Positions 7,939 to 36,172 of a stretch of DNA of 36,652 nt are shown here, one piece after another. The stretch covers positions 1 through 36,652 of the forward strand of contig NZ_JAPYVU010000014.1 in NCBI RefSeq assembly GCF_028276765.1, written 5' to 3'. A program made the translations under genes and the position numbers. The notes under the pieces are model-generated. The model was not told the origin of the DNA. It did not search any database and saw nothing but the letters and a program-made list of their open reading frames with translations. Position 1 is the first letter of the stretch, and every line of letters starts with the position of its first letter. The stretch comes from Sulfurihydrogenibium sp. (GTDB lineage Bacteria > Aquificota > Aquificia > Aquificales > Hydrogenothermaceae).

Positions 7939-8091
7939 GAGGTTGTTCTAAGATTCTCGTAAACTTACCTTTCCGTGTCATCCCGAGGCTGTAAGCCGAA
8001 GGATCTCTTTTTTGATTTTTTGACTTGAAAAGAAAAACATGAGATTCTTCGCTTCGCTCAGAATGACAATTTTGATTTTTGGGACAGCCTC
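7939..8091 (+). repeat. Type 1 miniature element (intact reference copy) with 10-bp target duplication
   Basis: A 153-bp element bounded by inverted ends GAGGTTGTTCT and, on the other strand, GAGGCTGTCCCAAAAATC. It is flanked by the exact 10-bp direct repeat GTGAGTAAGC at 7929-7938 and 8092-8101, the mark of transposition. Inside are two palindromes: one around CATCCCGAGGCTGTAAGCC, ending GAAGGATC, and one around GATTCTTCGCTTCGCTCAG, ending AATGAC. They are separated by an AT-rich stretch. There is no coding potential. Related copies lie at 15061, 26760, 28664, 28835, 30760, 31360, 32350 and 36043. Confidence 0.85.
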
Positions 8092-8200
8092 GTGAGTAAG
8101 CTTATTTTAGAAAAACAATGATTGTTTAGTACAAGAATTACTTGTTCATAAATGAATTTTAAGTGTGAAACTTAGACGTTTTGTTTAAAAAGGATTTAAA

Positions 8201-8226
8201 ATAAAAAAGGGGGCTTTTGCCCCCCC
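8201..8226 (-). terminator. Intrinsic terminator of the two-component / exported-protein operon
   Basis: On the minus strand the stem GGGGGC/GCCCCC (8219-8224 with 8209-8214) closes a 4-base loop and is followed by six T residues. It sits 10 bases after the stop of the Lys/Ala-rich protein and is the only strong terminator in the operon that begins at 10892. Confidence 0.85.
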
Positions 8227-8235
8227 TTGAAGAGA

Positions 8236-8448
8236 TTATTGTTTGTTTTCTTCTTTCTTTTCTACTTTCTTAGCAGCTTTTTTCTTTTTAACAACTTTTT
8301 TAGCTGGAGCTTTTTTCTCTTCTTTAGCTGGAGCTGCTGCTTCTTGTTTTGCTCCTTCTGCTGGAGCTGCTGCTTTTTCTTCAGCCATTGCTGCGAATCC
8401 CATTCCGAACACTGCTACTGAGAGTGCTGATAATACTAATTTTTTCAT
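8236..8448 (-). CDS. Small exported Ala/Lys-rich protein
   Basis: A 70-residue protein with a clear signal peptide, MKKLVLSALSVAVFGMGFAA, and a likely cleavage after AMA at residues 20-22. The mature part, about 48 residues, is almost entirely A, P, E and K: an Ala/Pro/Glu segment followed by a Lys-rich tail with KKVVKKKKAAKK. It is likely disordered and strongly basic at its C-terminus. AGGAGGT lies 5 bases before the ATG, a strong start. It follows the lipoprotein gene by 30 bases and precedes a strong terminator. No family is recognised. Low-complexity basic periplasmic proteins such as acid-shock protein Asr are a loose analogy, and envelope, polyanion or metal interaction is speculation. 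Confidence 0.75.
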   Translation of the reverse strand: MKKLVLSALSVAVFGMGFAAMAEEKAAAPAEGAKQEAAAPAKEEKKAPAKKVVKKKKAAKKVEKKEENKQ

Positions 8449-8478
8449 GTTACACCTCCTATAAAAATTTTAATAAAA

Positions 8479-8766
8479 TTATTTTCCTGCTGGTACAGCT
8501 GGTTGTTCAGCTGGTTTTTGTTCGCCTGCTGGAGCTGCTTGTTGTTCAGCTGGTTTTTGCTCTCCTGCTGGTGCAGCTTGTTGCTCTCCACCTTGTGCAG
8601 GTGCAGCTTGTTGAGCTGGTTGTTGTTCAGCTGGTGCTGGAGCTGCTGGTTGTGCAGCTGGAGCTGCTTGTTGTTCAGCTGGTTGTTGTTCTTCTTTCTT
8701 TTGGCAGCTGAAAAGTAAAGATGTTGATAATACAGCTGCTACTGTTCCAAGTACTAATTTTTTCAT
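8479..8766 (-). CDS. Small Gln/Ala/Pro-rich lipoprotein
   Basis: A 95-residue protein with signal MKKLVLGTVAAVLSTSLLFS and lipobox LFSC (C21). The mature part is low complexity, built from repeats of the type AEQQAAPAGEQKP; the GEQKPAEQ.A.PAG unit occurs twice near the C-terminus. It is probably a disordered, membrane-anchored tether or spacer. The start is ATG with AGGAGG nine bases upstream. It shares the opening MKKLVL with the neighbouring Ala/Lys-rich protein, so both may be recently evolved or paralogous in their signal peptides. It lies 73 bases after the histidine kinase stop, on the same strand. No family is recognised. The repeats make it prone to length change between strains. Confidence 0.75.
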   Translation of the reverse strand: MKKLVLGTVAAVLSTSLLFSCQKKEEQQPAEQQAAPAAQPAAPAPAEQQPAQQAAPAQGGEQQAAPAGEQKPAEQQAAPAGEQKPAEQPAVPAGK

Positions 8767-8839
8767 TCCTTATAACCTCCTTTTTAATTTATCACCAAAT
8801 ATTTTATTCTAATAAAATTACACAAATATTAAATAAAGA

Positions 8840-10243
8840 TTACAAATTTGTAATTTTGCCAAAAGTAATCTCAAAAGTTGTTCCTTCATTTTCTTTGCTA
8901 AATACCTTAATTTCTGCCGAGTGTCTATCTAAAACTGCCTTAACAAGACTTAAACCAAGGCCGCTTCCCATGTATATTCCCCGGCTTTCATCAGCTCTAT
9001 AAAACTTATCAAAAATCTTATCTAATTTATCCTCCGGAATACCTATCCCTGTATCAGAAATAATTAGTATTACTTTGTCTTCAATTTCTTTAAGCTTTAT
9101 GAAAATCTTTCCATCTTGTTTATTAAACTTAATGGCATTATCCAATAAATTTGCTATTGCTCTGCTAAGATATTTTTCATCACCCAAAATGTAGATATCT
9201 TCGTCTACTTCCATTTCTATTTTTATTCCTTTTGTTAGTGCATAGTCTTTAAACAATGAATATAAATTTTTGATAATTTTTGATAAGTTTACCTTTTCCA
9301 TTGAGAGCTGAAATGTTCCGGATTCAAGTTTTGAGATAGTAAGAAGGTCTGCTATCATTTGATTTAAAGACTCTGTTTCTTCAATGATATAGACTAATAA
9401 ATCTGAACATTCTTTACTGACTTTGTTTTTCATTAGCATGTTTTCAGATGCCGCTCTTATTCTTGCGATTGGTGTTTTAAGGTCGTGGGCTATGCTTTCT
9501 GTAGTTTCTTTTAAGGTTTTTACAAGAATTTCTATTCTATCTAAAAGATTATTAATAACTACTGCTAAATCATCCAACTCATCTCCGGCTTGAGAAACAG
9601 GAACTCTTTTCTCTAATTTCATACTGGTAGATAGCTCTTTTGCAGTGTTTGAAATTCTTTTGATTTTTCTTGTGATTGAGTTTGCTATTAAAAATCCACC
9701 AATTAATGATAATAAAAACACAATAATTCCAGAATTATAGAAGATGCTTAAGAGTCTGTTCAAAAGCCTGTTTTTATCATGTTTAGATTTTCCGATTACT
9801 AACGTGTATTTTGGAGAGAGCTTATAGATGATGATATGGAAGTCATCTAAGGATACAATTTCATATTTATCCGGAGTTAGTTTTTTATAGTTTTCTAAGT
9901 TTATCACTATATTTTGTGTATGAATAAGTGTATTTGTGTTTAATATAATACTACCTTTATTATCGTAGATTTTAAAAAATTCATCTTTATTATTTATAAT
10001 TTCAGCTTCTTTTAGGATTTGCTTTTTCAGTCCATTTATCCCTTCCTGCTTGAATAGAATTTTATAAGATTTTGCCTTTTCTGTAATCTCTTGTTTTATT
10101 TTATCATCAAGATAGATTTCAAAAAATGAGTAAACTGTAAAAAATGAAGCTATTAATGATAGTAAAAGTAAAGTTGAATATAGGAGTGTTATTTTAATTC
10201 CAATTTTATTGACAGTTTTAGTTAGCTTTAAGAACATAACCAA
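8840..10243 (-). CDS. Membrane sensor histidine kinase
   Basis: A class I sensor kinase of about 465 residues. A membrane helix at about 18-40, a periplasmic sensor loop at 41-168 with no recognised domain, a second helix at about 171-190, then a HAMP region. The HisKA motif is SIAHDLKTPIAR, with the phospho-accepting H253. The ATPase domain shows NLLDNAIKFN (N box, N368), DTGIGIP, FDKFYRAD and GSGLGLSLVK. It should autophosphorylate and pass phosphate to the response regulator encoded just upstream. The reading frame overlaps the regulator gene by 26 bases. The start may be TTG at 10243 or ATG at 10237; neither has a good Shine-Dalgarno sequence, so coupling is likely. The stimulus is unknown. 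Confidence 0.93.
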   Translation of the reverse strand: MVMFLKLTKTVNKIGIKITLLYSTLLLLSLIASFFTVYSFFEIYLDDKIKQEITEKAKSYKILFKQEGINGLKKQILKEAEIINNKDEFFKIYDNKGSIILNTNTLIHTQNIVINLENYKKLTPDKYEIVSLDDFHIIIYKLSPKYTLVIGKSKHDKNRLLNRLLSIFYNSGIIVFLLSLIGGFLIANSITRKIKRISNTAKELSTSMKLEKRVPVSQAGDELDDLAVVINNLLDRIEILVKTLKETTESIAHDLKTPIARIRAASENMLMKNKVSKECSDLLVYIIEETESLNQMIADLLTISKLESGTFQLSMEKVNLSKIIKNLYSLFKDYALTKGIKIEMEVDEDIYILGDEKYLSRAIANLLDNAIKFNKQDGKIFIKLKEIEDKVILIISDTGIGIPEDKLDKIFDKFYRADESRGIYMGSGLGLSLVKAVLDRHSAEIKVFSKENEGTTFEITFGKITNL

Positions 10244-10892
10244 AGCCGCGAACTGTATGAATTAACTTTTTATCAAATCCTTTATCTATTTTGTCTCTTA
10301 ATCTGTGTATTTGAACATCTACCACATTGCTCTCTATATCAAAATCTATATCAAAAACGTTGGCAAGTATCATGTTTCTTGTTACTATTTTTTCAGCATT
10401 TTCCATAAGATATTTTAAAAGTTCATACTCTTTTGCTGTTAGGTCTATTTTTTTATTTCCTCTATAAACTTCTTTTTTAAGTAAATCCATAGTCAAGTCA
10501 TGGTATTTTAATTTTGAAATTTCATCTATATCTTTACTTCTTCTAACAAGGGCTTGGATTCTTGCCAACAACTCTGGAAAGCTAAAAGGTTTTGTTAAGT
10601 AATCATCAGCTCCCAAGGACAATCCTTTAACTTTATCTTCTACACTATCTTTTGCGCTTAATACAAGAATAGGTGTTTTTATTTTTTTGTTTCTAAGAGA
10701 TTCTATAATATAAAATCCAGACATTTTAGGAAGCATCAAATCAAGGATTATTATGTCAAAGTCTTCATAATTTGCGTAATTTAAACCTTCTTCTGCATCA
10801 TAGGCTTGTACCACATCATATCCTTCTTCTTTTAAACGTTTTGCAATGAGTTTTGATAAGTTCTTATCATCTTCTACTATTAAAACTTTCAT
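10218..10892 (-). CDS. OmpR/PhoB-type response regulator
   Basis: The 224-residue protein has a receiver domain (1-115) with the acidic pair E7/D8-D9, phosphorylation site D51, S79 and K101 in TKPF. A winged-helix DNA-binding domain (about 130-224) follows, with LTAKEYELLKYL, VDVQIHRLRDKI and the final HTVRGFGYVL. It is the first gene of a four-gene run: regulator, kinase, lipoprotein and Ala/Lys-rich exported protein. The start is strong (GGGAGG five bases before ATG). The arrangement suggests that it controls its own operon and hence the two envelope proteins. A TATAAT is visible about 40 bases upstream on the minus strand, but without a clear -35. Confidence 0.95.
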   Translation of the reverse strand: MKVLIVEDDKNLSKLIAKRLKEEGYDVVQAYDAEEGLNYANYEDFDIIILDLMLPKMSGFYIIESLRNKKIKTPILVLSAKDSVEDKVKGLSLGADDYLTKPFSFPELLARIQALVRRSKDIDEISKLKYHDLTMDLLKKEVYRGNKKIDLTAKEYELLKYLMENAEKIVTRNMILANVFDIDFDIESNVVDVQIHRLRDKIDKGFDKKLIHTVRGFGYVLKAN

Positions 10893-10992
10893 TAAATCCT
10901 CCCTGCTGAAATAGTGATTGATTATATTTTATATCATGCTGAAAAAAAGAATTTCTATAACAATATTTTTATTAAACTTTAATCCTAACAAT

Positions 10993-11142
10993 ACCTTGGG
11001 TGGGAAATTAGCAGTTTTTATAGAATTTAAAAAGGAGATCCCTCGGACTAAAGTCCTCAGAACGATGACAAAGAAATAAAAATCCTGTCATTCTGCAGCC
11101 GACGAAGAATCTCATGCTTTTGTTGAATTTCTTACCCGACGT
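10993..11142 (+). repeat. Type 2 miniature element
   Basis: A 150-bp element starting ACCTTGGGTGGGAAATTA and ending TGAATTTCTTACCCGACGT, whose reverse complement is ACGTCGGGTAAGAAATTC. The inner part holds the same two palindromes as type 1 elements but in the opposite order: GAGATCC.TCGG first, TGTCATTCTGCAGCCG last. No target duplication is visible in the flanks. It occupies most of the 310-base gap between the divergent response regulator and HerA genes. Confidence 0.8.
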
Positions 11143-11162
11143 ATGTTTAATAAATACATACT

Positions 11163-11174
11163 TTATGCTATAAT
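11163..11174 (+). promoter_or_regulatory. Probable extended -10 promoter for the HerA gene
   Basis: TTATGCTATAAT lies 29 bases before the HerA start. The hexamer 17 bases upstream (TTTAAT) is a poor -35, so the TGn extension probably carries recognition. A short inverted repeat, GTATGT...ACATAC, spans 11142-11162 immediately upstream and could be an operator, though its left arm touches the end of a miniature element. Confidence 0.5.
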
Positions 11175-11203
11175 TTCAAAATAAATAAGGATAAGGGTAA
11201 AAA

Positions 11204-12766
11204 ATGGAAAAGCTTGGAATAGTTGTAGGTTCTACAAAACCAAACAGAGTTAACTTTTTATCTAATAAACCACTCAGACTTGGTCAGTTTGTGATTTTAA
11301 AATACTTTGATGGTGATGAAGAAATAAGACTTCTTGGAATGATTAATAAAGTTGAAAGGGAAAATAAATATATTCCGGAAGATATTCCAAATTATGAAAA
11401 AATTGACAGATTGATAAAAGAAAGTTCAAACGAGACAAAGGTTAAAGGAGAAATTCAGATTCTTGGAAAAATCGCAGAAAGAGATAACGGAATAACTCTC
11501 GAATTTCAAAGGACACCCCCTCTTCCGGCATCAGAAGTTTTAAAACCACCAAAAGAAATATTAGAAAAGCTCTTTGGCTCAAAAGGAAAAAATTATATAA
11601 AAATTGGAAAGCTTTTAAGTGAAGCAGAAGATGTAAATGTGTATATTGATATTAATCAAATAGTTTTAAGGCATCTTGCAATTCTTGCAATCACAGGAGC
11701 AGGAAAGTCTAACACAGTATCGGTACTACTTGACAATATAGTTAATTTAAAAGGAACTGTTGTTGTGTTTGATTTTCATGGAGAGTATACAAGAGCTGAA
11801 TTTAGAAGAGATGGAAAAAATGTTGTAAATGTTATAAAACCTCTCGTTGACCCAACTACCCTTGATAAAAAAGATTTTGCAAAGCTAATAGGAATTAGGG
11901 AAAATGCAACTACTCAGTATAGATACTTTAAATATGCGGTTGATAAAGTATTAAGAGACTTGAAAGATGAAAAGGGCGATGATTGGAGAAGGTTTGTAGA
12001 GACTGAAAGTTTTTTTGACAGGTTGATTGGTGAGCTTGAAAGCTGGACGGACGAAGAAAAATCATCTCCATTTAAAGGTAAAATCAGAGAAGAATCTCTT
12101 TATGAAGTTATGAATAAAATAGAAGATACGATGGTAGACTTAAGTCATATAATAAAAATTGGCGCAAAAGACCTTATAGAGAACATAAGACCTGGCATGG
12201 TAAATGTCTTTGACTTTTCAGAAGTTGATGAAGAAGTAGCAGATGCTCTTGCATCTAACATTTTAAAACATTCTTTAATAGAAAGAAAAAAAGCAGTAAG
12301 AGGAAGTGATAGCAAAATTCCAAACCCAATTTTAATCGTTGTTGAAGAAGCCCATATTCTTGCAGGCGTTAAATCTGATACAGACTCTAAATATTGGATG
12401 ACAAGAATAGCAAGAGAAGGTAGAAAGTTTGGACTTGGATTATGCGTTGTTACACAAAGACCAAAAGGTTTAGATAAAGAAATTTTATCTCAGATGAACA
12501 ACATGATAATACTAAAACTTGTCGAACCAGAAGACCAAAAGCACGTTCAAAGCGCAAGTGAATCATTATCCTCTGAGCTTATGGAATACCTGCCATCCCT
12601 TAACCCAGGAGAAGCTATAATTCTTGGAAATATGACAAAAATTCCACTGCTGATCAAGATTGACAAAGCTAAAGGAAAAATACAAGGCAATGACATACCG
12701 GTTGTTGATAAATGGCTCAGCTCAGAAGAAAAATTAAGCAAATTAGAGGATTTAAAGGACTTTTAA
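11204..12766 (+). CDS. herA: HerA-type hexameric ATPase / DNA translocase
   Basis: A 520-residue member of the HerA/FtsK ATPase group. Residues 1-100 form a beta-rich N-terminal region like the HAS-barrel. Walker A is ITGAGKSN (K168), followed by VVFDFHGEYTRAEF typical of HerA. Walker B is LIVVEEAH (E381/E382), and WMTRIAREGRKFG (398-410) holds likely arginine-finger residues. CVVTQRPKGL (414-423) is sensor-like. In archaea HerA pumps DNA for the NurA nuclease during end resection. Here no nurA-like gene is adjacent; the next gene, one base away, is a phosphoribosyltransferase. The start is ATG with AAGGG. Bacterial HerA homologues also serve in defence systems, but nothing nearby supports that reading. 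Confidence 0.85.
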   Translation: MEKLGIVVGSTKPNRVNFLSNKPLRLGQFVILKYFDGDEEIRLLGMINKVERENKYIPEDIPNYEKIDRLIKESSNETKVKGEIQILGKIAERDNGITLEFQRTPPLPASEVLKPPKEILEKLFGSKGKNYIKIGKLLSEAEDVNVYIDINQIVLRHLAILAITGAGKSNTVSVLLDNIVNLKGTVVVFDFHGEYTRAEFRRDGKNVVNVIKPLVDPTTLDKKDFAKLIGIRENATTQYRYFKYAVDKVLRDLKDEKGDDWRRFVETESFFDRLIGELESWTDEEKSSPFKGKIREESLYEVMNKIEDTMVDLSHIIKIGAKDLIENIRPGMVNVFDFSEVDEEVADALASNILKHSLIERKKAVRGSDSKIPNPILIVVEEAHILAGVKSDTDSKYWMTRIAREGRKFGLGLCVVTQRPKGLDKEILSQMNNMIILKLVEPEDQKHVQSASESLSSELMEYLPSLNPGEAIILGNMTKIPLLIKIDKAKGKIQGNDIPVVDKWLSSEEKLSKLEDLKDF

Positions 12767-12767
12767 A

Positions 12768-13424
12768 ATGTTTAGAGATAGAGAAGAAGCGGGAAGATTA
12801 CTTGGCGAGCTTTTAAAGAAATACGACTTTGATAAGGAAAATACTGTTATTTTAGCCATTCCAAGAGGAGGCGTTCCGGTTGCTTATGAAGTTTCTAAAA
12901 AGCTTAGGATACCATTTTCGTTGGTCATTACTAAGAAATTAGCTCCTCTTCGTGAGCCTGAAGCAGCATTTGGAGCAATTGCACCAGACGCAAGTCAAGT
13001 AATAGATGAAGTCTATATGAAATATATGGGAGTATCCTCTTCAGAGCTTGAAATTGTAAGAGAAAATGCAGTAAAAGAGATAAAAAACAGAATTATAAAA
13101 TATCTAAACGAAAAAGAGTCAAGCTTAGAAGGTAAAGATGTTATTATAATTGATGATGGAATAGCTACAGGATATACAGCAATAGCTGCAGCGATGTACG
13201 TAAAAAATAAAGGTGCAAAAAATGTATACCTTGCTATTCCAGTATGTCCGACAGATAGCATTCCGAGAGTAAAGAAATATTTTGATGATGTATTTTGCTA
13301 TGAAAAATCAGATTCTTCCTTTTTTGCAGTAGGTACGTTTTATGAAGATTTCCATCAAGTAAGCGACCAAGAGATGTTTTTTATCATTGAAGAAGCCAAA
13401 AAGAATGGATTATTTTATACTTAA
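12768..13424 (+). CDS. Phosphoribosyltransferase-domain protein
   Basis: The 218-residue protein has a type I PRTase fold. VILAIPRGGVPVA (27-39) provides the early loop and VIIIDDGIATGYTA (125-138) the PRPP-binding motif. It belongs to the COG1926-like group found alone or fused to hydrolases; substrate is unknown. Its ATG lies one base after the HerA stop, so the two are translationally coupled. The same pairing in other genomes, if found, would suggest a shared function. The last codons, including the stop, are part of a 28-bp sequence repeated on the far side of the type 2 element at 13427, so the element arrived at the exact 3' end without harming the gene. Confidence 0.8.
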   Translation: MFRDREEAGRLLGELLKKYDFDKENTVILAIPRGGVPVAYEVSKKLRIPFSLVITKKLAPLREPEAAFGAIAPDASQVIDEVYMKYMGVSSSELEIVRENAVKEIKNRIIKYLNEKESSLEGKDVIIIDDGIATGYTAIAAAMYVKNKGAKNVYLAIPVCPTDSIPRVKKYFDDVFCYEKSDSSFFAVGTFYEDFHQVSDQEMFFIIEEAKKNGLFYT

Positions 13425-13426
13425 AT

Positions 13427-13603
13427 ACTTTTGGTGAGAAATTAGTAATTTTTATACAATTTAAAAAGGAGATCCTTCGGACTTACGTCCTTAGGATGAC
13501 AGAGAAAGGGAAAGCATGTTAACAATTACCTTATTTGTCATTCTGCAGCCGGCGAAGAATCTCATACTTTTATTGAATATCTTACCTGACGTTTAACAGG
13601 CAT
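13427..13603 (+). repeat. Type 2 miniature element flanked by a 28-bp direct repeat
   Basis: The element begins ACTTTTGGTGAGAAATTA and has a right inverted end at 13581-13592 (CTTACCTGACGT), with 11 further bases before the repeat. The flanking sequence at 13405-13432 (starting ATGGATTATTTTATACTTAA) recurs at 13604-13631 with one mismatch; the first 21 bases are identical. The inner palindromes match those of the other type 2 copies (GGAGATCCTTCGG; TGTCATTCTGCAGCCGG). It separates the phosphoribosyltransferase gene from the haem lipoprotein gene. Confidence 0.8.
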
Positions 13604-13646
13604 ATGGATTATTTTATACTTAAAAACTTTTAAAGGAGGTGGAAAG

Positions 13647-14240: not shown

Positions 14241-14242
14241 AA

Positions 14243-14270
14243 TAAAAAAGGGGCTTTAAAGCCCCCTTTC
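14243..14270. terminator. Bidirectional terminator between the haem lipoprotein and ferredoxin genes
   Basis: GGGGCTTTAAAGCCCC (14250-14265) is perfectly self-complementary, with an A-run on its left and CTTTC on its right. It therefore ends minus-strand transcripts of the ferredoxin with T6 and plus-strand transcripts of the lipoprotein with a shorter T-run. Confidence 0.85.
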
Positions 14271-14281
14271 AAAAATTTATA

Positions 14282-14506: not shown

Positions 14507-14546
14507 AACATACCTCCTGTAAAATTTTTAATGAAGTAGCTTTAAT

Positions 14547-14575
14547 AGTATAGCTTATTATATATAAATTTTCAA
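14547..14575 (-). promoter_or_regulatory. Sigma-70-type promoter of the ferredoxin gene
   Basis: On the minus strand TTGAAA (14570-14575) and TATACT (14547-14552) are separated by 17 bases, an almost consensus arrangement, about 40 bases before the ferredoxin start. Confidence 0.7.
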
Positions 14576-14754: not shown

Positions 14755-15499
14755 GCTTTGTCCAATAATAGAAAATCATAGAATAGCCTATTTTTTCTGC
14801 ATACGTTTTATTGCTTTTCTTTAATTAATTATACACCACGCTAATAATTATTCATTGTTAAAAACCTATTAATAAGCATAGCTTTTAAAAATATCTCGGT
14901 TTTGATGTTCTCTACAAACCTCCGTTGAATTTGGTATAATTCCAGCAATAGCACCTATTATTTTGATAAAATCATAGAAATCTCGCGCATCATATCCTTT
15001 ATCTGCAAGTACTTTAAAAATTCTTTTACCTTTTTCTTTCAAATTTCTAAATGCATTTTCGAGGCTGCTCTAAACATCCACATAGTCATTCTGAGCGAAG
15101 CGAAGAAGCTCCTATTTTTCTTTTCAAGTCAAAAATCAAAAGAGGAGATCCTTTGGCCTTACGTCACCAGGATGACACGGAAAGGTAAGCTTACGAGAAT
15201 TTTGGAACACCTTCAAGTTTATACCTGATGTTTTAAATACTTCTTTAATTTTAGACTCTAAGTTAGAAAATCTAGTTCTAAAGTTTGGAATTTTAACTCT
15301 GCACTAAGGATTTTAAGAGAATGGTAAAGTGTTTTCACTTAAAAATATATCCTCATCAATTATTATCTCTCCGCGCTTTACAAGTTGTTTATTATATTTT
15401 TTCCAGTTTCTTTTCATAAAAATCTCACCAATTTTTAAGTTTTTGGGTACAATTTTATATGATATTACAATTAAATTGTGAAAATTTTTGGACAGTCTC
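14755..15499 (-). mobile_element. Decayed IS5-like insertion sequence, interrupted by a type 1 element
   Basis: On the minus strand the left end reads GAGACTGTCCAAAAATTTTC (ends at 15499), and the other end is GCTTTGTCCAATAATAG (14755). Between them are pieces of a DDE transposase: MKRNWKKYNKQLVKRGEIII (from 15415), then KIPNFRTRFSNLESKIKEVF, TSGINLK, and, after the inserted repeat, FRNLKEKGKRIFKVLADKGY followed by DARDFYDFIK. The middle of the gene is missing and stops follow. VLADKGYDA is typical of the second catalytic region of IS5/IS4-type transposases. The family is tentative. The element is dead but shows which ends its transposase would have recognised. Confidence 0.7.
15061..15214 (-). 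repeat. Type 1 miniature element inside the IS5-like transposase remnant
   Basis: A 154-bp copy in reverse orientation: GAGGCTGCTCTAAACATCC at the left and, on the other strand, GAAGGTGTTCCAAAATTC at the right. Both inner palindromes are present (GTCATTCTGAGCGAAGCG; GGAGATCCTTTGGCCTTACG). It splits the transposase reading frame between TSGINLK and the FRNLKEKG segment. No clear target duplication remains. Confidence 0.8.
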
Positions 15500-15523
15500 A
15501 ATTATAATATTAATCTTATAATA

Positions 15524-15699
15524 CCTTGGGTGAGAAATTAGCGGTTTTTATAGAATTTTAAAAATGAGATCCTTCGGCCTTACGGCCTCAGGATGACAGG
15601 AAAAGGTTGATTGATAAGTGTTAAAAGAAGGATAACCTTATTTGTCATTCTGAGTGAAGCGAAGAATCTCATGTTTTTGTTGAATTTCTCACCCGACGT
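15524..15699 (+). repeat. Type 2 miniature element flanked by a perfect 29-bp direct repeat
   Basis: A 176-bp element from CCTTGGGTGAGAAATTAGCG to TTTCTCACCCGACGT, with both palindromes (GAGATCCTTCGGCCTTACGG; TGTCATTCTGAGTGAAGCG). The 29 bases immediately left (15495-15523, starting GTCTCAATTATAATATTAAT) are repeated exactly immediately right (15700-15728). The left copy includes the last 5 bases of the IS5-like element, so insertion came after that element. This is the clearest example of the long duplication. Confidence 0.9.
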
Positions 15700-18474: not shown

Positions 18475-19107
18475 CTATTTACTTGTGGGTTTGGTTTTAT
18501 GTAATTACTCAAAATAATCCACCTATGCTATAATAATAAGTAGTAAGTAGTATAGGAGGTAAAACATGAATTTAGTAGAATTACTACAGATAGCATCATC
18601 AGAAGAAAAAGCAGAAGAATTTTTAAGAGAATGAAGTGTTAGAAAAGACAGTATTCTTGAAGATTTAAAAATTCCATTCTCTAAATTTATATTGGCTGTA
18701 AAACTATTCATCCTTGAAGCTGCTGCTCATAAAGAGCTTGATTTAGCTTACAATACTATGCACAAAATTTATACAAAACTTAGACAGTGTATATACAAAT
18801 TTGTCTCAAAAGATGACCAGCTTTTATCAGGAGAAGTAGAAATGGATGAAAGCTATTTTGGAGGAAAAAGGAAAGGCAGTAGAGAAAGAGGAGCAAAGAA
18901 TAAAATTTCTGTGTTTGGAATTCTTGAAAGAAATGGAAAGGTCAAAGTTGAGATAGTGAAGGATGTATCTGCTGAAAGAGGCTACTAAAATTTCATGGTG
19001 TAAGTAAGGATAATTTTATCTACTATCTAAAAGAGCTTGAATTTAGGTATAACCTTAGGGATAATATTGATGATAGTTTGTATAAATGTTTAGGTGGAAT
19101 GAATTGA
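18475..19107 (+). mobile_element. Decayed IS1595-like insertion sequence
   Basis: An extended -10 (TATGCTATAAT, 18524-18534) and AGGAGG precede a start at 18566 (MNLVELLQIASSEEKAEEFL), which is stopped after 22 codons. Further in-frame and shifted pieces follow: KFILAVKLFILEAAAHKELD, then SGEVEMDESYFGGKRKGS (first catalytic Asp region of IS1595 DDE transposases), KISVFGILERNGKVKVEIVK, and after a shift FHGVSKDNFIYYLKELEFRY with NLRDNIDD, the C-terminal signature. The zinc-ribbon and part of the catalytic domain are missing. It separates the MNT remnant from the aspS leader and probably truncated the former. Confidence 0.75.
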
Positions 19108-19551: not shown

Positions 19552-19564
19552 TTGGCCAGGTTTT

Positions 19565-28834: not shown

Positions 28835-28986
28835 GAAACTGTTCCAAAAATCTACACTGTCATTCTGCAACCGGCGAAGAATTTCCTGTTTTTCTTTTCA
28901 AATTAAAAAATCAGAAGAGGAGATCCTTCGGCCTAACGGCCTTGGGATGGCAAGGAAAAGTGAATTTACAGAATTTTGGAACGCTC
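28835..28986 (-). repeat. Type 1 miniature element
   Basis: A 152-bp reverse-orientation copy from GAAACTGTTCCAAAAATC to GAATTTTGGAACGCTC. It carries both palindromes (GTCATTCTGCAACCGGCG; GGAGATCCTTCGGCCTAACG). The octamer TATGACTG lies on both sides (28823-28830 and 28988-28995) but is not flush with the left end, so it may be a drifted target duplication. Upstream of ahcY. Confidence 0.75.
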
Positions 28987-29072
28987 TTATGACTGTATTT
29001 TATTTCCAAATTCTGTAATGGTAATTTAAATTTGTTTTTTATTTTTCAGCAAAACCTTTATATTTCTAAACT

Positions 29073-29083: not shown

Positions 29084-29114
29084 ATAACCTACATTTTTTT
29101 AAAAGGAGGGTTAA

Positions 29115-30371
<1,257 letters not shown>

Positions 30372-30393
30372 AAAACTATTTAAGGAGGCAGAC

Positions 30394-30621
30394 ATGACAA
30401 GAGAAGAAGCAATCAAAAAATTATTAGAGACAGATAAAGAATTTAAGCACATGTATGAAGAGCATCAAGAATTAGAATGGAAAGTTCAAAAGCTTGAAAA
30501 ACATTTTCCACCAGACCCAGAAATTGAAGCCGAAGAAGAAAGATTAAAAAGAAGAAAGCTTTATTTAAAGGATATGATGGAGTTAAAAATTAAAGAATTC
30601 TTATCAAAAACCCAAGGATAA
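30394..30621 (+). CDS. Small DUF465 (YdcH-like) coiled-coil protein
   Basis: A 75-residue charged helical protein, MTREEAIKKLLETDKEFKHM onward, with EEHQELEWKVQKLEK and a second helix ERLKRRKLYLKDMM. This is the DUF465/YdcH layout: two antiparallel helices with a short acidic turn, function unknown. The frame extends upstream to 30361, but AGGAGG lies five bases before the ATG at 30394, which fixes the start. It follows ahcY by 22 bases and ends at a terminator, so the two form an operon. Confidence 0.75.
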   Translation: MTREEAIKKLLETDKEFKHMYEEHQELEWKVQKLEKHFPPDPEIEAEEERLKRRKLYLKDMMELKIKEFLSKTQG

Positions 30622-30633
30622 CCCTCATACAAC

Positions 30634-30660
30634 GGCAAGCCTTAGAGCTTGCCTTTCTAT
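30634..30660 (+). terminator. Terminator of the ahcY operon
   Basis: GGCAAGC (30634-30640) pairs with GCTTGCC (30647-30653) around a 6-base loop and is followed by TTTCTATAAATTT. The stem is good and the U-tract moderate. Confidence 0.7.
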
Positions 30661-30706
30661 AAATTTAATCTCAAGGTATAATCACATAGTTTTTGTCCTA
30701 TATTTC

Positions 30707-30888
30707 AGGTGAGGAATTAGATAAAAGTAGGAGATTCTTTGTCGGCCGTAGAATGACGCCATTCGGAAGTCCTTGTCATCCTGAGACTGTAAAGCCGAAG
30801 GATCTCATTTTTTGATTTTTGACTTGAAAGAAAAGTATGAAATTCTTCGTTTCGCTCAGAAATTACGGTGTGGATTTTTGAAACAGCC
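30707..30888 (+). repeat. Composite repeat: type 2 left part fused to type 1 right part
   Basis: Starts with a worn type 2 end (CAGGTGAGGAATTAG) and GGAGATTCTTTGTCGGCCG, then switches to a type 1 body (GTCATCCTGAGACTGTAAAG, GAAATTCTTCGTTTCGC) and ends with the type 1 end GATTTTTGAAACAGCC. This is best read as a type 1 insertion into a type 2 element, with loss of the outer remainder. Confidence 0.65.
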
Positions 30889-31252
30889 ACAATTTATGAA
30901 TTGTTTTGTACGGAAGTTCATGAACTGCATAGCATTTGCCAATTTGTTTAAATTTCTCAGTTTTGAATTCTTTGATAAAAAAGGGAAGTCAGCCGGTGGC
31001 CAACTTCCAAAATTCTTGCAGGAGGCTATTCTTGAAGAAAAAACGCAGCAGGAGCTATAAGTGATATTAAAAATTTATGCCAATTTTCTATTGTGTAAAT
31101 ACAAACGCTTTTATATTTTACTGTCCAAAAAAGAACAAAAACTGTCCGATTTGGAACAAAAGAGGTGAGATTTTGGAGCCTTTTTCTAAAAAATTTTTAA
31201 AATAGATGAGTAAAGCCAGTTATAAATGCCATCTAAAAAATATTTCAAATAA
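30889..31252. other. Gene-free stretch between composite repeats
   Basis: A short plus-strand frame reaching 31060 ends with FEFFDKKGKSAGGQLPKFLQ, but its start lies inside the repeat and it has no ribosome binding site. The last part could be a gene fragment; no family is recognised. Around 30960-31025, GGAAGTCAGCCGG faces GGCCAACTTCC in a possible hairpin. Confidence 0.3.
31120..31161. repeat. Two tandem 21-bp repeats
   Basis: ACTGTCCAAAAAAGAACAAA (31120) and ACTGTCCGATTTGGAACAAA (31141) stand head to tail, differing mainly in the middle. In the second unit TGTCC faces GGAACA as an imperfect inverted repeat. Neither neighbour gene starts nearby, so a control role is uncertain. Confidence 0.5.
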
Positions 31253-31478
31253 ATGTTGGGGTGACGAATTAGGTAAAAGTAAGAGATTTTTTACTTTGCT
31301 CAGAATGACAACTTTACTTTCGTAAGGGTGATTCATGAATCGCCCCTACTTTTCCACTTTATTTTTCATCCTGAGGACGCAAGTCGGAAGGATCTTCTTT
31401 GATTTTTTGACTCGAAAAGAAAAATAGTAGATTCTTCGCTTCGCTCAGAATGACCGTGTGGATTTTTAGAACAGTTTC
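31253..31478 (+). repeat. Composite repeat: type 2 end, extra palindrome, type 1 body
   Basis: Begins with a type 2-like end (ATGTTGGGGTGACGAATTAG), passes a palindrome-2 half (TTTGCTCAGAATGACAAC), then the 28-bp palindrome at 31322-31349, then a full type 1 body (CATCCTGAGGACGCAAGTC; GATTCTTCGCTTCGCTC) ending GATTTTTAGAACAGTTTC. It shows layered insertions. Confidence 0.65.
31322..31349. repeat. 28-bp near-perfect palindrome
   Basis: GTAAGGGTGATTCATGAATC followed by GCCCCTAC is self-complementary except for two mispaired positions. A worn relative lies at about 28744-28762. It is distinct from the two palindromes of the miniature elements. Confidence 0.7.
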
Positions 31479-31517
31479 AATTTTCCACAAGTACATAATA
31501 ATTTGAAAAACCTATTT

Positions 31518-32153
31518 TTACTCAATCTTACTGCTAATTAGAACACCATCTCTTAAAGGAATTAATACGCTAAAAAACTCTTTATTTTTAAACATATACT
31601 CATTAAATTCTTTAATTTTTACTGTTTTTTCATCAGGATTATCTTGTGCAACTTTGCCATACCATAGCGTATTATCAGCGATAACTAAACTACCAACTTT
31701 AAGATTGTCTTTTAACGTTAAAATAGCTTCAAGATATTTAGTTTTTTCTAAATCCAGAAATAAAATATCAATATCTTTATACTCTTTTGCTATTTCAATA
31801 GCATTTCCTACTCTAAACTCAGCTTTATCTAACAAACCAAATCTTTCAAAATACGATTTTGCCATAGATAGGTTTCTTTCTTGATAGTCTGTTAGTACAA
31901 CCTTCCCGCCATTCATAGCTTTTGCAAAATAATAAGCAGAATATCCATAACCAGAACCAAGCTCTACAACTAATTTTGGATTTTTTAACTTTGTAATTAG
32001 ATAAATCAGCCTTCCAACTGTCCTATCAATAATAGGGAAGTCATTTTTGTGAGCATAGTCTTCCATTTCTTTTAAGATTTCTTCATCTTCAATGAAGGCA
32101 ATTCTGTTTAACTGTTCTATGTAAGCTTCTACTTGCGGATTTAGTATATTCAT
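31518..32153 (-). CDS. SAM-dependent O-methyltransferase (Methyltransf_3 type)
   Basis: A 211-residue class I methyltransferase of the catechol/caffeoyl-CoA O-methyltransferase group. Motifs: TVGRLIYLITKL before motif I VVELGSGYGYSA (63-74), VLTDYQERN, DILFLDLEKTKY with the metal-binding aspartate region, and IADNTLWYGKV, the family's second metal-ligand motif (D-N). Bacterial members include the tRNA wobble-uridine methyltransferase TrmR as well as small-molecule enzymes, so the substrate is open. It has a weak ribosome binding site and its own promoter region, with the 12-bp palindrome ATCTTATAAGAT at 32171-32182 just upstream. It is flanked on both sides by repeats and stands alone. Confidence 0.85.
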   Translation of the reverse strand: MNILNPQVEAYIEQLNRIAFIEDEEILKEMEDYAHKNDFPIIDRTVGRLIYLITKLKNPKLVVELGSGYGYSAYYFAKAMNGGKVVLTDYQERNLSMAKSYFERFGLLDKAEFRVGNAIEIAKEYKDIDILFLDLEKTKYLEAILTLKDNLKVGSLVIADNTLWYGKVAQDNPDEKTVKIKEFNEYMFKNKEFFSVLIPLRDGVLISSKIE

Positions 32154-32204
32154 AGGCTAAATTTTATCATATCTTATAAGATGCTATAATATTTTTAATC
32201 ATAT

Positions 32205-32955
32205 ACGCTTAGGGTGAGAAATTACATCTAAAAAACTCCTTGGCGGTAGTTAAAATTGTAATAGCAAAAAATTCCACCAAGGAAGTAAAAATGCAAAACT
32301 CTAATCTTTATTTTACACTATTTCAAAAAATCTATGAGCATTTAACTAAGAGTGTTCCAAAATTCTTGTAAACCTACCTTTCCGTGTCATCCTGAGGACG
32401 AAGTCCGAAGGATCTCTTTTTTGATTTTTGATCTTGAAAAGAAAAATAGGAGATTCTTCGCTTCGCTCAGAATGACAATTTTGATTTTTGGAACAGCCTC
32501 GCATCTAACTATACTTTTAAACATCCAACCAAAAAAGAAAGCAGGTAGACCATCTAAGGTATCTGATTTACAACTTGCAGCTTTATATATCACATCCTAC
32601 ATTTCAAACACTCCTATTCTTACACTTTCCAGATTTCTAATTTGTCCTTCTATTCAATCTTGGCATCTGTTTAGAAAATCAAAATCAGAGAGAGTTTACA
32701 AAATCCTTAGAGAATATTGGCTAAGAAGAGTCACGATTTATTCTATGGACTTTTAGTTATGGTGGTTTGTGATGAAGACGGTATGGTTTATGATATATGG
32801 TTTCATCCAGCAAGCTATCATGAAGTAAGGTTGTTAAGAATGAGACACAAAATGAGTAAATGGTTTAGATTCTTGTTGCTTATCTATATGTATATGCTGT
32901 TGGTTATAGCTTTTTAAGAAAAAGTAGATTATGGAAGTAATTTCTTGCCCAAGGT
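32205..32955 (+). mobile_element. Decayed IS982-like insertion sequence interrupted by a type 1 element
   Basis: The ends are ACGCTTAGGGTGAGAAATTA (32205) and, on the minus strand, ACCTTGGGCAAGAAATTAC (from 32955), which are the type 2 miniature-element ends. A transposase frame starts at 32291 (MQNSNLYFTLFQKIYEHLTK), is split by the repeat at 32350-32500, and resumes with KKKAGRPSKVSDLQLAALYI. After a shift it has FYGLLVMVVCDEDGMVYDIW and FHPASYHEVRLLRM, which resemble the catalytic core of IS982 transposases. About a third of the gene is missing and stops are present, so it is dead. Confidence 0.75.
32350..32500 (+). repeat. Type 1 miniature element inside the IS982-like transposase
   Basis: A 151-bp copy from GAGTGTTCCAAAATTCTTG to GATTTTTGGAACAGCCTC, nearly identical to the 7939-8091 copy. 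The flanks GCATTTAACTA (32338-32348) and GCATCTAACTA (32501-32511) are an 11-bp target duplication with one later change. It splits the transposase frame after EHLTK. Confidence 0.85.
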
Positions 32956-33090
32956 ATAGAAATATAGCTATTATAAATTCATCTTTGTAGTTTCTTGGTC
33001 TACTTCTTTGACCATATTTCTTTTCTTTATGTTTAATCTTTTTAAAAATTAAAAAATCTTTTTGTAAGCTTATAGATTTGCCTGAAAGAT
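32956..33090 (-). pseudogene. N-terminal fragment of another transposase
   Basis: The minus strand reads SLQKDFLIFKKIKHKEKKYG and then QRSRPRNYKDEFIIAIFLY before running into the IS982-like end. The 'GRPRKY.DEFI..' pattern is common near the N-terminus of DDE transposases. No start or continuation exists. The IS982-like element probably truncated it. Confidence 0.4.
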
Positions 33091-33131
33091 ATTCCTGTTT
33101 TTCTCATGTAAACATTCCATTTTTTGACTTC

Positions 33132-33485
33132 CTATTTTGCAAATGGTAATAGTTTGATTATTAGTTCAACAGCATCTTTATTTATGAAAATTATCAAAAA
33201 GGCAAGAATCAAAAACATGATTGTAAATTTCTTGTCAAGTTTTAACACTTCTTTTTCAATTTTAGCTTCAAGCTCGGTTTTAACTAATATCAAATCAGCT
33301 TTCGTAGCAAGTTCTTTCGTAAGCTCATCTTTAAGCTCAAGCTTTTTTTGATGTGCTAAGCTTTCTGATTTTTTGTCTAATTCGTTATAGATCAATTCAA
33401 TAGTTTGTGCAATCTTTTTAGCCTCTTCTTTGCCTATTTTTTCTTCTAACTTTTCTAATAACTCATAATCTATAACGTAAGCCAT
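33132..33485 (-). CDS. Coiled-coil, single-span membrane protein, tandem copy 2
   Basis: A 117-residue protein: MAYVIDYELLEKLEEKIGKE, a long charged coiled coil (residues about 10-80, with ELATKADLILVKTELEAKI) and a C-terminal membrane helix (about 85-107, FTIMFLILAFLIIFI) followed by DAVELIIKLLPFAK. The layout resembles DUF1640/CCDC90-type proteins. The frame is open seven codons upstream, but the ATG at 33485 has GGAG properly placed 10 bases after the stop of copy 1. It is almost identical to its neighbour except for the segment before the membrane helix. It is likely cotranscribed with the hydroxyacid dehydrogenase and mqnC. Confidence 0.75.
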   Translation of the reverse strand: MAYVIDYELLEKLEEKIGKEEAKKIAQTIELIYNELDKKSESLAHQKKLELKDELTKELATKADLILVKTELEAKIEKEVLKLDKKFTIMFLILAFLIIFINKDAVELIIKLLPFAK

Positions 33486-33495
33486 TTTTGACTCC

Positions 33496-33858
33496 CTATT
33501 TTGCAAATGGTAAAAGTTTAATTATTAGTTCAACAGCATCTTTATTTATGAAAATTATCAAAAAGGCAAGAATCAAAAACATGATTGTAAATTTCTTGTC
33601 AAGTTTAAGTATTTCCTTTTCTAATTTAGCTTCGATTTTTTCTAACTTTGCTTCTATGATTGCTAAATCAGCCTTTGTAGCTAATTCTTTTGTAAGCTCA
33701 TCTTTAAGCTCAAGCTTTTTTTGATGTGCTAAGCTTTCTGATTTTTTGTCTAATTCGTTATAGATCAATTCAATAGTTTGTGCAATCTTTTTAGCCTCTT
33801 CTTTGCCTATTTTTTCTTCTAACTTTTCTAATAACTCATAATCTATAACGTAAGCCAT
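33496..33858 (-). CDS. Coiled-coil, single-span membrane protein, tandem copy 1
   Basis: A 120-residue near-duplicate of the protein encoded immediately downstream. The first 71 residues and the last 33 are essentially identical; between them it has LAIIEAKLEKIEAKLEKEIL instead of LILVKTELEAKIEKEVL, a three-residue longer heptad stretch. The C-terminal helix anchors it in the membrane and the N-terminal coil probably lies in the cytoplasm and oligomerises. The family (DUF1640-like) is of unknown bacterial function. GGAG precedes the ATG by eight bases, and the gene starts 18 bases after mqnC. Confidence 0.75.
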   Translation of the reverse strand: MAYVIDYELLEKLEEKIGKEEAKKIAQTIELIYNELDKKSESLAHQKKLELKDELTKELATKADLAIIEAKLEKIEAKLEKEILKLDKKFTIMFLILAFLIIFINKDAVELIIKLLPFAK

Positions 33859-33876
33859 TATAGAAACTCCGATTAC

Positions 33877-34959
33877 CTAATCAAAAATCTTGACAATATT
33901 ATAATATGTATCTCTCTGTGCAGGAGTAAAGCCGGCGTCTTTAATTTGTTTAGCCATTTTTTCCGGTCTTGGACTTGAAACCTTAAAGCCTGTAGAAGCT
34001 ACTACATTCTCTTCAATCATAGTGCTTCCTAAATCATTTGCACCAAACCTTAAGCCGATTTGACCAACTTTCATCGTTTGAGTGACATGGGATGATTGAA
34101 TATTATCAAAATTATCAAGATAAATTCTTGCCAATGCTAAAACCTTTAAATACCACACAGAAGTAGCCGGCTCTAAATGGTCAAGTTGTGTATTGCCTTT
34201 TTGAAAAGTCCATGGTATAAAGGCAGTAAATCCACCTGTTTCATCTTGAAGTTGTCTAATATGGTTTAAATGTTCGATAATATGCTTTGGTTTTTCAACA
34301 TGTCCAAACATCATTGTTGCCGTTGACCTCATTCCAAGCTCATGGGCTGTTCTATGGACTTCAAGCCATTGAGCTGTTGTAGTTTTATTTGAAGATATTA
34401 ACACTCTTACTTCGTCAGATAAAATCTCTGCACCACCACCTGGAAGAGACATTAATCCTGCTTCTTTTAACTTTATTAAAACATCCCTTATGCTCATTTT
34501 TTCAACCTTAGCAAGATAATTTATCTCTGTTGCTGAAAGTGAATGAATTTGTATTTGCGGAAACCTTTCTTTTATTCTTGAAAATAACTCTATATAAAAA
34601 TCAAGTCTTAAATCTGGATTTAAGCCACCTTGCATTAGCAAGGTAGTTCCACCCCAATCTATAAGCTCCTGAATTTTAGTAAATATCTCATCAAGTTCAA
34701 GTACATAAGCATCACTATCTGATTTTCTTCTTTGAAAAGCACAAAATTTACATCCTGCAACGCATACATTTGTATAATTTATATTTCTATCTATAACAAA
34801 CGTAGCTATATTATCCGGATGTTTTTTTGCTCTAATATAATCAGCAAGCCTGCCAAGAGATAATAAATCAAAATTCTCAAGCATATATAATGCTTCTTCC
34901 GGCTCTAATCTTTCACCATTCAAAACCTTTTCTGTTAAATAAGATTGTTCTTTTATCAA
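33877..34959 (-). CDS. mqnC: Cyclic dehypoxanthinyl futalosine synthase
   Basis: MqnC is the radical-SAM enzyme of the futalosine menaquinone pathway that cyclises dehypoxanthine futalosine. The 360-residue protein has the SAM-cluster motif CVAGCKFC (C66, C70, C73) after NYTN, then LLMQGGLNPDLRLDFY, SLSATEI, SLPGGGAEIL, GMRSTATMMFGH and FIPWTFQ, all matching MqnC rather than its relative MqnE. The start is TTG (34957-34959), with AGGAG seven bases upstream. It overlaps the stop of the hydroxyacid dehydrogenase gene (TTGA), so the two are coupled. No other mqn gene is in the window. Confidence 0.92.
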   Translation of the reverse strand: MIKEQSYLTEKVLNGERLEPEEALYMLENFDLLSLGRLADYIRAKKHPDNIATFVIDRNINYTNVCVAGCKFCAFQRRKSDSDAYVLELDEIFTKIQELIDWGGTTLLMQGGLNPDLRLDFYIELFSRIKERFPQIQIHSLSATEINYLAKVEKMSIRDVLIKLKEAGLMSLPGGGAEILSDEVRVLISSNKTTTAQWLEVHRTAHELGMRSTATMMFGHVEKPKHIIEHLNHIRQLQDETGGFTAFIPWTFQKGNTQLDHLEPATSVWYLKVLALARIYLDNFDNIQSSHVTQTMKVGQIGLRFGANDLGSTMIEENVVASTGFKVSSPRPEKMAKQIKDAGFTPAQRDTYYNIVKIFD

Positions 34960-35978
34960 CTTGACACTCCTACGATATTTTTTGGATTTCCTTCTATGAA
35001 TGATTTTAAGTTATCAAGTGTAATATCTAATATTCTATAAAGTGCATCTTTTGTGTTATAAGCGTTATGTGGAGATACGATAACATTTTCAGAATGTAAA
35101 ATATAAAATGTCTCCAATGCTTTTTTTAACTTTATTGCAGGAATATCATCTCTCTTTAGATATTCTTCTTCGATCCAAACATCTTCTGCTTCAAATGTAT
35201 CAAGTCCTACACCACCTGCAAGCCTACCTTCTTTAAGTGCTTGAACTATAGCTTCTATCTCAACTACAGGACCCCTTGAAGTATTAATAAGCATAGCATC
35301 TAATTTCATAAGTTTGATATTAAATCTGTTTATCAAATGATGTGTTGCCGGTGTGTATGGTACATGCAGAGTAACGATATCAGAACTTCTAAGCAAATCT
35401 TCAAGTCCTACATACTCAACGCCGTATTTTTCAATCAATTCATTATCTTTAGCTCTATCATATACAAGTATTTTCATTCCAAAGCCATGGGCTATTCTTA
35501 TTACATGCTTTCCAATCCTTCCGGCACCAATTATACCGATAGTTTTACCCATTAAGTCTATTCCTGTTAACCCATCTCTTGAAAATATGCCTTTTGACGT
35601 TCTTTCTATCATAGGTTTAAATTTTCTTGCCAACGCAAGTATTAATGCAAATGTATACTCGGCAACTGTATTATTACCATATCCGGGAACATTACAAACA
35701 GTTATACCCTTTTTATTAGCATAATCAACATCTATATGATCATATCCTGTTGACCTTGTAATGATTAATTTTAAATTTTCCATCTTATCAATTACTTCTT
35801 TTGTTAGCTTAGAATATATAAATACAATAGCTACTTCTGTATCTTTGTAAAGGTCTACATTTGTATCATCAAGTGGCTCTTTTGTAAATTTAACGCTTCC
35901 TTGAATTCCTAAGTCTTGTATTTTTTTCTCTAAGTACAATCTTTCCCAATCTTCCGTCTCAAAAAAATAGATGTTCAT
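34956..35978 (-). CDS. D-2-hydroxyacid dehydrogenase (D-lactate dehydrogenase-like)
   Basis: An NAD-dependent dehydrogenase of the D-isomer-specific family, 340 residues from the ATG at 35978. It has the dinucleotide motif GIIGAGRIG (148-156) and the catalytic triad R235 (NTSRGP), E263 region (LDTFEAED) and H304 (SPHNAY). The closest group by eye is LdhA-like D-lactate dehydrogenases. An upstream in-frame TTG would add five residues, but GGAGGG sits seven bases before the ATG, so the shorter form is chosen. It is first in a run with mqnC and the coiled-coil genes. Confidence 0.88.
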   Translation of the reverse strand: MNIYFFETEDWERLYLEKKIQDLGIQGSVKFTKEPLDDTNVDLYKDTEVAIVFIYSKLTKEVIDKMENLKLIITRSTGYDHIDVDYANKKGITVCNVPGYGNNTVAEYTFALILALARKFKPMIERTSKGIFSRDGLTGIDLMGKTIGIIGAGRIGKHVIRIAHGFGMKILVYDRAKDNELIEKYGVEYVGLEDLLRSSDIVTLHVPYTPATHHLINRFNIKLMKLDAMLINTSRGPVVEIEAIVQALKEGRLAGGVGLDTFEAEDVWIEEEYLKRDDIPAIKLKKALETFYILHSENVIVSPHNAYNTKDALYRILDITLDNLKSFIEGNPKNIVGVSS

Positions 35979-36042
35979 AGCGCATCCCTCCAATTTTTTT
36001 AATCTATTCTAACATAGAGATAGATATATTGGTACTTTGTAT

Positions 36043-36172
36043 TAATAGAAAATCATAGAACATCCCGAGGCCGTAAGGTCGAAGGATATCGTTTTTGATT
36101 TTTTGGTTTGAAAAAAATTATGAGATTCTTCGCCGGCTGCAGAATGACAATTTGAGTTTTTGGAACAGTCTC
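36043..36172 (+). repeat. Type 1 element whose left end matches the IS5-like remnant
   Basis: The left end, TAATAGAAAATCATAGAA, is shared with the right-hand end of the IS5-like wreck (about 14764-14781). The body has both palindromes (CATCCCGAGGCCGTAAGG; GATTCTTCGCCGGCTGCAG) and the right end is TTTTTGGAACAGTCTCC. It looks like an intermediate between the insertion sequence and the shorter elements. Confidence 0.6.

Follow-up and report, generated by a model that had tools for sequence, protein, structure and literature searches.

Repetitive extragenic palindromic sequences (REPs) of the CGTC type were defined by Di Nocera, De Gregorio and Rocco (2013; PMC3733652), in whose text the superfamily includes dRS3 of Neisseria and RPE-4 and RPE-6 of Rickettsia. 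The repeats are described there with a stem of 8–9 bp, a loop of 4–5 nt and a tail that is mostly CCA; head-to-head (HH) dimers predominate and tail-to-tail (TT) dimers are rare. In H. neapolitanus, CGTC-1 dimers lie inside 41-bp palindromes, which gives a precedent for REP dimers within miniature inverted-repeat transposable elements (MITEs; PMC3733652). The paper's text states an apparent lack of a dedicated transposase and ends by asking what moves CGTC REPs (PMC3733652). Here we analysed a stretch of 36,652 nucleotides from Sulfurihydrogenibium sp. (the window), contig 14 of an 84-contig, 1.746-Mb genome (G000; 32% G+C), in which two MITE families with different ends, type 1 and type 2, carry a common cargo. 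What the two families share is a CGTC-tagged REP, of which the two inner palindromes are alleles. REP pairs of this kind flank, in several phyla, the genes of a close subfamily of GIY-YIG nucleases of about 95 aa, and the REP stem type follows the nuclease tree. The nuclease is the best candidate for a dedicated enzyme of CGTC REPs, which it may cleave and mobilise.

The repeat has the consensus GTCATYCTG...GAAGRATCTC, for which a loose pattern gave 118 and 100 genome matches compared to 0 in the control. Among 144 copies with the exact pattern in the stretches examined, the Y position and the paired R position vary jointly (T-A in 94, C-G in 47, other in 3). In DNA folds GTC and CTC are unpaired, and the minimum-energy fold leaves GTC free in all three REP forms tried. 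Two of these forms show 5 bp, a GA/GA interior loop, then 2 or 4 bp, and the tail CTC. The architecture comprises an unpaired GTC, an outer stem beginning with AT, the GA/GA interior loop and a variable inner hairpin. The long form folds better than its shuffles (z −2.55), while a third form does not (z −0.06). No match was found in the window with Rfam at gathering thresholds. The exact REP sequences had no match in open-licence paper texts, and shorter strings matched none that was relevant by title among those listed.

A gene for a 95-aa GIY-YIG endonuclease lies in G000 within a REP array on contig 12 (C12), between REP(+) and REP(−). It matches PF01541 with 62.3 bits (cut-off 22.6), and no separate DNA-binding domain is seen in its about 95 aa. 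In 12 of 12 hand-picked members (of 76) Y7, Y18, G20, R28, H32, E65 and N84 are invariant; following I-TevI, we take Tyr, Arg, Glu and Asn to be the catalytic residues. Across 136 genomes of Aquificota, the phylum of the window, four PF01541 matches fall in short frames (99–120 aa) and the rest in frames of at least 218 aa, which were taken as UvrC or pieces of it. Three of the four short genes belong to the nuclease subfamily, each inside a REP cluster; the fourth (G038) is of another kind, in a genome without a REP match. All three subfamily genomes are among the six with at least 10 REPs (hypergeometric P 4.9e-5).

The association was followed into other phyla with two samples. The first comprised 50 genomes selected for the exact REP, 32 of which had a GIY-YIG match at E 1e-3, and 30 loci were read (at most one per genome). 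The second comprised 148 genomes from the phylum of G166, 'Nitrospirae bacterium' by record title, drawn regardless of REPs except for G166 and G145, which were first found via the REP and whose loci count in both sets; here 90 loci were read and L409 was dropped, since tblastn gave no match. The subfamily boundary of at least 65 tblastn bits was fixed after the first 30 loci were known and then applied to the larger sample. Among the REP-chosen loci above it, 20 of 23 have a GTCAT palindrome within 400 bp, 15 of them on both sides. In the G166 phylum this holds for 47 of 52 subfamily loci, with both sides in 44/52 (45/50 and 42/50 without the G166 and G145 loci), and GTCAT points outward in 32 of the 44. 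Loci of 45–65 bits have a palindrome in 2/14 cases and those below 45 bits in 1/23, on both sides in none of either class; together, the other GIY-YIG loci reach 3/37 and 0/37 (Fisher 1.7e-17 versus the subfamily). REP density is 4.90 per kb within 400 bp of the gene compared to 0.30 beyond 800 bp. By hand count, a GTCATTSYGAG REP occurs in 30/37 sample genomes with the subfamily versus 30/111 without it (Fisher 1.1e-8). Taking the exact 27-mer of the commonest REP as the starting point, only 4 of the 119 foreign stretches around it hold a GIY-YIG gene, which we read as REPs far outnumbering the nuclease gene; the reverse test, from nuclease to REPs, was used instead. A match was present in 32 named records, and of the 15 examined ten show a palindrome within 400 bp by a search slightly looser in rule than that for the G166 phylum, and four more by eye (CCTC, CGTCGC or CGTCAC starts). 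Phage records gave no match at 1e-8.

The palindromes vary greatly among loci and match within a locus. Left and right outer arms are the same in 45/59 loci, compared to a mean of 14.0 and a maximum of 24 after shuffling (n=1000). On the nuclease tree the REP stem type changes 10 times over 63 labelled rows (shuffled mean 31.6, minimum 25; n=200), a count that left out four rows with unlike flanks and the rows without flanks. The GA-type rows alone require 6 changes over 41 rows (shuffled mean 16.2, minimum 12). Stem type also tracks the nuclease clade among copies in one genome, e.g. G224 and G289. In systems of REP-associated tyrosine transposases (RAYTs), too, the REP type follows the enzyme family.

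At given sites the gene can be present or absent. The Azospirillum lipoferum nuclease unit is flanked by sufB and sufC. In eleven further Azospirillum records the region is matched in two pieces at 81–82%, and the three of them that were aligned are without the whole REP-REP-GIY-REP-REP block. Of the aligned Sphingobium plasmid records, three have the unit and three do not. At this site TomTYG64 (L453) carries a single palindrome that equals the left REP's outer half fused to the right REP; a solo palindrome of this kind, with mismatches, is seen in TomTYG74 (L454), and none in TomTYG72. Judged from these alignments, the solo palindrome may mark a site before insertion or be the product of a deletion between the two REPs. 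Two further cases were set aside. Sinorhizobium was dropped as a presence/absence case, since the K101 alignment shows the gene in both strains, differing by extra REP pairs. In Shinella H4-D48 the unit is absent, but the sequence is too diverged for placing the junction. In Planktothrix agardhii plasmid p1 (L434) a GIY-YIG gene with nearby REPs is found between a type IIL restriction gene and the DISARM gene drmA, possibly an insertion into a defence island.

Several observations weigh against a role of the nuclease in spreading REPs. Shuffled versions of the commonest 27-nt REP fold just as well as the REP itself (z 0.25). One of the seven REP-chosen loci below 65 bits (L333) is also bracketed on both sides, and no palindrome lies within 400 bp of 5/52 subfamily loci in the G166 phylum and 3/23 in the REP-chosen set; among the 15 named records, Rhizobium tumorigenes shows no REP. 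The REP occurs without the subfamily in 30/111 sample genomes, and no stand-alone GIY-YIG gene was found in G100 (359 REPs) or in G103 (279 REPs, 82% complete), two genomes of the window's genus. The nuclease tree is built on 97 columns with 31 of 70 inner branches unresolved, and host phylogeny was not controlled. The presence/absence changes are unrooted and show no target duplication. The window's genus offers no clean empty site: the corresponding place in G100 holds REPs and a transposase gene (by eye), four REP-free relatives have no clean counterpart of the G000 nuclease site, and G103 gave no match.

The REP pattern is present in 13 of the 136 Aquificota genomes. Within the genus G000 has 257 copies, G100 359 and G103 279, and the pattern is missing from the other four of its seven genomes. 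Counts of 74, 44 and 16 were obtained for three genomes from another family, and one or two for each of the remaining seven. Several-kb REP clusters surround the GIY-YIG gene in G123 (L280) and G125 (L281), where some REPs are arranged head-to-tail (HT). Among 41 genomes searched for the MITEs, full-length copies of both types occur in G000, G100 and G103. Beyond these, type 1 gave only partial matches (G053, G066 and G071), and the only full type 2 copy outside the genus, with 83% identity, lies in G053 (C1:736975-737149), which belongs to another family; this suggests horizontal transfer. The exact 27-mer is far more widespread. It was found in at least 119 stretches, and the matches listed span more than ten bacterial phyla: Acidobacteria, Bacteroidales, Chloroflexi, Clostridia, Helicobacter, Nitrospirae and others, further Planctomycetota, Verrucomicrobia, Armatimonadetes, Elusimicrobia and Poribacteria, most of them metagenome bins.

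The initial annotation had described two miniature-element families in the window, and both are present at those places and abundant in the genome. Their copies, with the two insertion sequence (IS) wrecks whose ends they resemble, are as follows.

7939–8092, minus strand: type 1 MITE with HH REP dimer (sequence, inverted-repeat matches, BLAST)
10993–11142, plus strand: type 2 MITE with TT REP dimer (sequence, BLAST)
13427–13592, plus strand: type 2 MITE with TT REP dimer (sequence, BLAST)
14755–15499, minus strand: IS5-like wreck, right end resembling type 1 ends (weak profile match)
15061–15209, plus strand: type 1 MITE with HH REP dimer, within the IS5-like wreck (sequence, BLAST)
15523–15699, plus strand: type 2 MITE with TT REP dimer (BLAST, end pairs)
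15566–15597, minus strand: long REP of the 15523 type 2 copy (exact pattern)
15644–15670, plus strand: short REP of the 15523 type 2 copy (exact pattern)
28835–28988, plus strand: worn type 1 MITE (ends set by eye; inverted-repeat matches)
30775–30896, minus strand: worn type 1 remnant, a single REP recognised (limits by eye)
31331–31479, minus strand: worn type 1 copy, 61% to the copy at 7944 (inverted-repeat matches)
32205–32955, plus strand: IS982-like wreck, both ends resembling type 2 ends (weak profile match)
32348–32500, minus strand: type 1 MITE with HH REP dimer, within the IS982-like wreck (BLAST, end pairs)
36058–36172, minus strand: worn type 1 copy with a REP pair and a single end (limits set by eye)

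A BLAST search using one hand-made consensus per type identified at least 50 type 1 and at least 49 type 2 copies in G000; these are lower bounds, since 40 of 370 (type 1) and 40 of 402 (type 2) candidates were scored. Ends and REP order were counted in 268,788 bp of G000 stretches chosen for such elements. Type 1 ends matched 164 times compared to 44 in shuffled sequence and type 2 ends 100 times compared to 3, so that single type 1 ends are partly due to chance. Pairing of ends gave 37 type 1 and 30 type 2 pairs, a few of which share an end. With its IS5-like ends, type 1 encloses REPs in '+-' order, GTCAT outward (HH), in 23 of 37 pairs and in '-+' order in none; type 2, with IS982-like ends, encloses '-+', GTCAT inward (TT), in 27 of 30 and '+-' in none. 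Of the remaining 17 pairs, 12 contain a single recognised REP, 3 contain none and 2 an odd set. Type 1 is ordered short(+), spacer, long(−), and type 2 long(−), spacer, short(+). Close opposed REPs combine a short and a long form in 82 of 98 pairs, and the pair orientations are 57 TT, 42 HH and 8 HT. Both families also share short-REP variants, GAGCRAAGCGA (19 in type 1, 7 in type 2) and GCAGCCGGCGA (5 in type 1, 12 in type 2).

The type 1 and type 2 cores look like two frames of one alternating REP array rather than the same unit. Such an array is present in G000 at C12:1731-1910. In a circular-permutation test on the 11 bases next to the REPs, the consensuses of the two families agree at 32/44 positions (shuffles: mean 20.4, maximum 30; n=5000), a result to be treated with caution, given AT-rich flanks and a length of 11 that was chosen by us. 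The capture of one module by two transposition systems, as originally proposed, holds insofar as one REP family with preserved pairing sits in two MITE families with unrelated ends; the palindromes are one family in opposite dimer order, and no intact module is shared. Nesting of type 1 elements in type 2 does not account for this, since an end of the opposite family lies inside only 3 of the 67 end pairs. The resemblance of the MITE ends to those of the two IS wrecks was also borne out, as the terminal inverted repeats of both types are shared with them, while the identification of the wrecks themselves is weak. NCBIfam gave IS5 at E 8.7e-4 and 0.023 and IS982 at E 1.1e-3, far below curated cut-offs; Pfam gave only DDE_Tnp_1, under threshold (E 0.17), for an IS5-like piece and no relevant match for the IS982-like pieces, and tblastn against plasmids found an IS982 transposase at E 5 only. 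Each wreck has a type 1 MITE within it (15061–15209 and 32348–32500). An open reading frame (ORF) at 32352–32756 reads through the latter, its REP being translated as ...RRFFASLRMT..., a string which is common in spurious database proteins. Other features of the window are a minus-strand tandem of two near-identical ORFs (about 120 aa each) at 33121–33864, with repeats 93–97% alike, and, at 18692–18988, a fragment resembling an ISXO2/IS1595-type transposase by eye.

On the sequence evidence we consider it probable that REP-GIY-REP constitutes an autonomous element and that its REPs became passengers of two MITE families amplified by DDE transposases. The nuclease would cut REP hairpins or cruciforms, and repair would copy the REP or the whole REP-GIY-REP to new places in a homing-like manner, HH dimers and alternating arrays being non-autonomous offspring. 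In the ancestry of the three genus genomes an IS5-like MITE would have gained an HH dimer, and an alternating array would have supplied an IS982-like MITE with a TT dimer. Two DDE transposases could then have amplified these REPs as passengers, also in the two genomes where no such nuclease was found. We propose that two unrelated MITE families share a core because each acquired parts of an element with a mobility of its own. The two families are ordinary carriers of a member of a pan-bacterial REP superfamily. With somewhat less assurance, we favour the more general view that a minimal GIY-YIG nuclease spreads REPs by palindrome-directed homing, as an element class in more than ten phyla.

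The GIY-YIG gene could instead be a passenger, with REPs spread in trans by RAYT/Y1 or DDE transposases and REP pairs being good landing sites or flanking any mobile gene. REP-rich genomes without the subfamily exist, and DDE-type MITEs alone can explain most REPs of the genus: of the first 30 REP places, 10 lie between two MITE ends and 16 beside one, so that 26 adjoin at least one end and 4 none, compared to any MITE end at 110 of 2103 random places away from REPs. A RAYT as the REP driver in G000 was rejected, since PF01797 (Y1_Tnp) gave 0 matches at E 1e-3 in its draft genome, the only one searched. Moreover, the 0/37 bracketing of other GIY-YIG genes in the G166 phylum and the match of stem type to nuclease clade even within G224 and G289 make a mere passenger unlikely. 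We give about the same small weight to a nuclease that controls REPs instead of spreading them; cleavage of REP hairpins or cruciforms would then serve to excise the REPs or to safeguard replication. Branched DNA is cut by eukaryotic members of the GIY-YIG superfamily, among them SLX1, to which the nuclease has a weak PDB match (E 0.68). In Sphingobium, the solo palindrome at two sites that lack the gene would fit deletion between flanking REPs. However, a gene that is REP-bracketed, variable in presence and matched to its own flanking REP type has the look of a selfish element.

A selected host role had also been suggested for the palindromes, which MITEs would keep as transcript ends, RNA stabilisers or protein-binding sites. 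The preserved pairing (3 exceptions among 144 copies) is in agreement with this, as is the location of REPs mostly between convergent or unidirectional genes given in the text of PMC3733652. However, the four of seven genus genomes without the pattern show that no general host function is needed, and pairing kept across many phyla is equally explained by recognition by one enzyme kind. A host role is not required for a REP that is pan-bacterial, occurs also away from MITEs and brackets a nuclease gene, and we regard it as quite improbable, more so than the other two alternatives. If the more general view of palindrome-directed homing is true, CGTC REPs, including dRS3, RPE-4, RPE-6 and many unnamed families, would be united as one nuclease-REP system. 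A REP-bracketed nuclease with a phylogeny matching REP type is a specific enzyme, testable by a single cleavage assay.

We found no report linking GIY-YIG nucleases to REPs in the open-licence literature, preprints not being covered, and an earlier report is possible. Words beginning with GIY, Aquific or Nitrospir are absent from the main text of PMC3733652. The text of RepRanger (2025; PMC12306157) mentions CGTC a single time, among the references, and contains no words that start with nuclease, endonuclease, transposase or RAYT. PMC10928387 was discarded as a prior report; its accessible text concerns GIY-YIG nucleases of unknown function, and RAYT and 'palindromic repeats' were chance word matches.

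Compared to the CGTC REPs of PMC3733652, and as far as its text describes them, the repeat shares the tag (CGTC, TGTC or CCTC), AT at the first two stem positions, the short hairpin, the dimers and the wide distribution. In addition, the CGTC-REP hosts A. lipoferum, S. meliloti, N. aromaticivorans and Neisseria gave nuclease loci with such REPs (S. meliloti and N. aromaticivorans by eye). It differs from the families described there by the GA/GA mismatch in the stem, the tail CTC instead of CCA, common TT dimers, members inside two MITE families and a candidate enzyme. Set against the paper's text, the repeat rather forms an additional family within the superfamily, outside the four that are described. 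Like bacterial MITEs with IS5- and IS982-like ends, the elements of the window are about 150–180 bp long with terminal inverted repeats like those of the local IS wrecks; unlike them, they have an interior that is mostly REP dimer. The nuclease has the GIY-YIG catalytic core (PF01541) of I-TevI-type homing endonucleases and is likewise present or absent at a given site, but at about 95 aa it shows no separate DNA-binding domain, and it sits between palindromes and not in an intron or conserved gene. The closest parallel is the REPIN/RAYT system (REPtron) of GTAG REPs, where REP pairs also bracket one small nuclease gene and many miniature pairs occur (RAYT side partly from the text of PMC3733652). 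Unlike there, the enzyme is a GIY-YIG nuclease and not a Y1 HUH transposase, and, if the more general view holds, the nuclease-REP system would be parallel to, and independent of, RAYT-REPIN.

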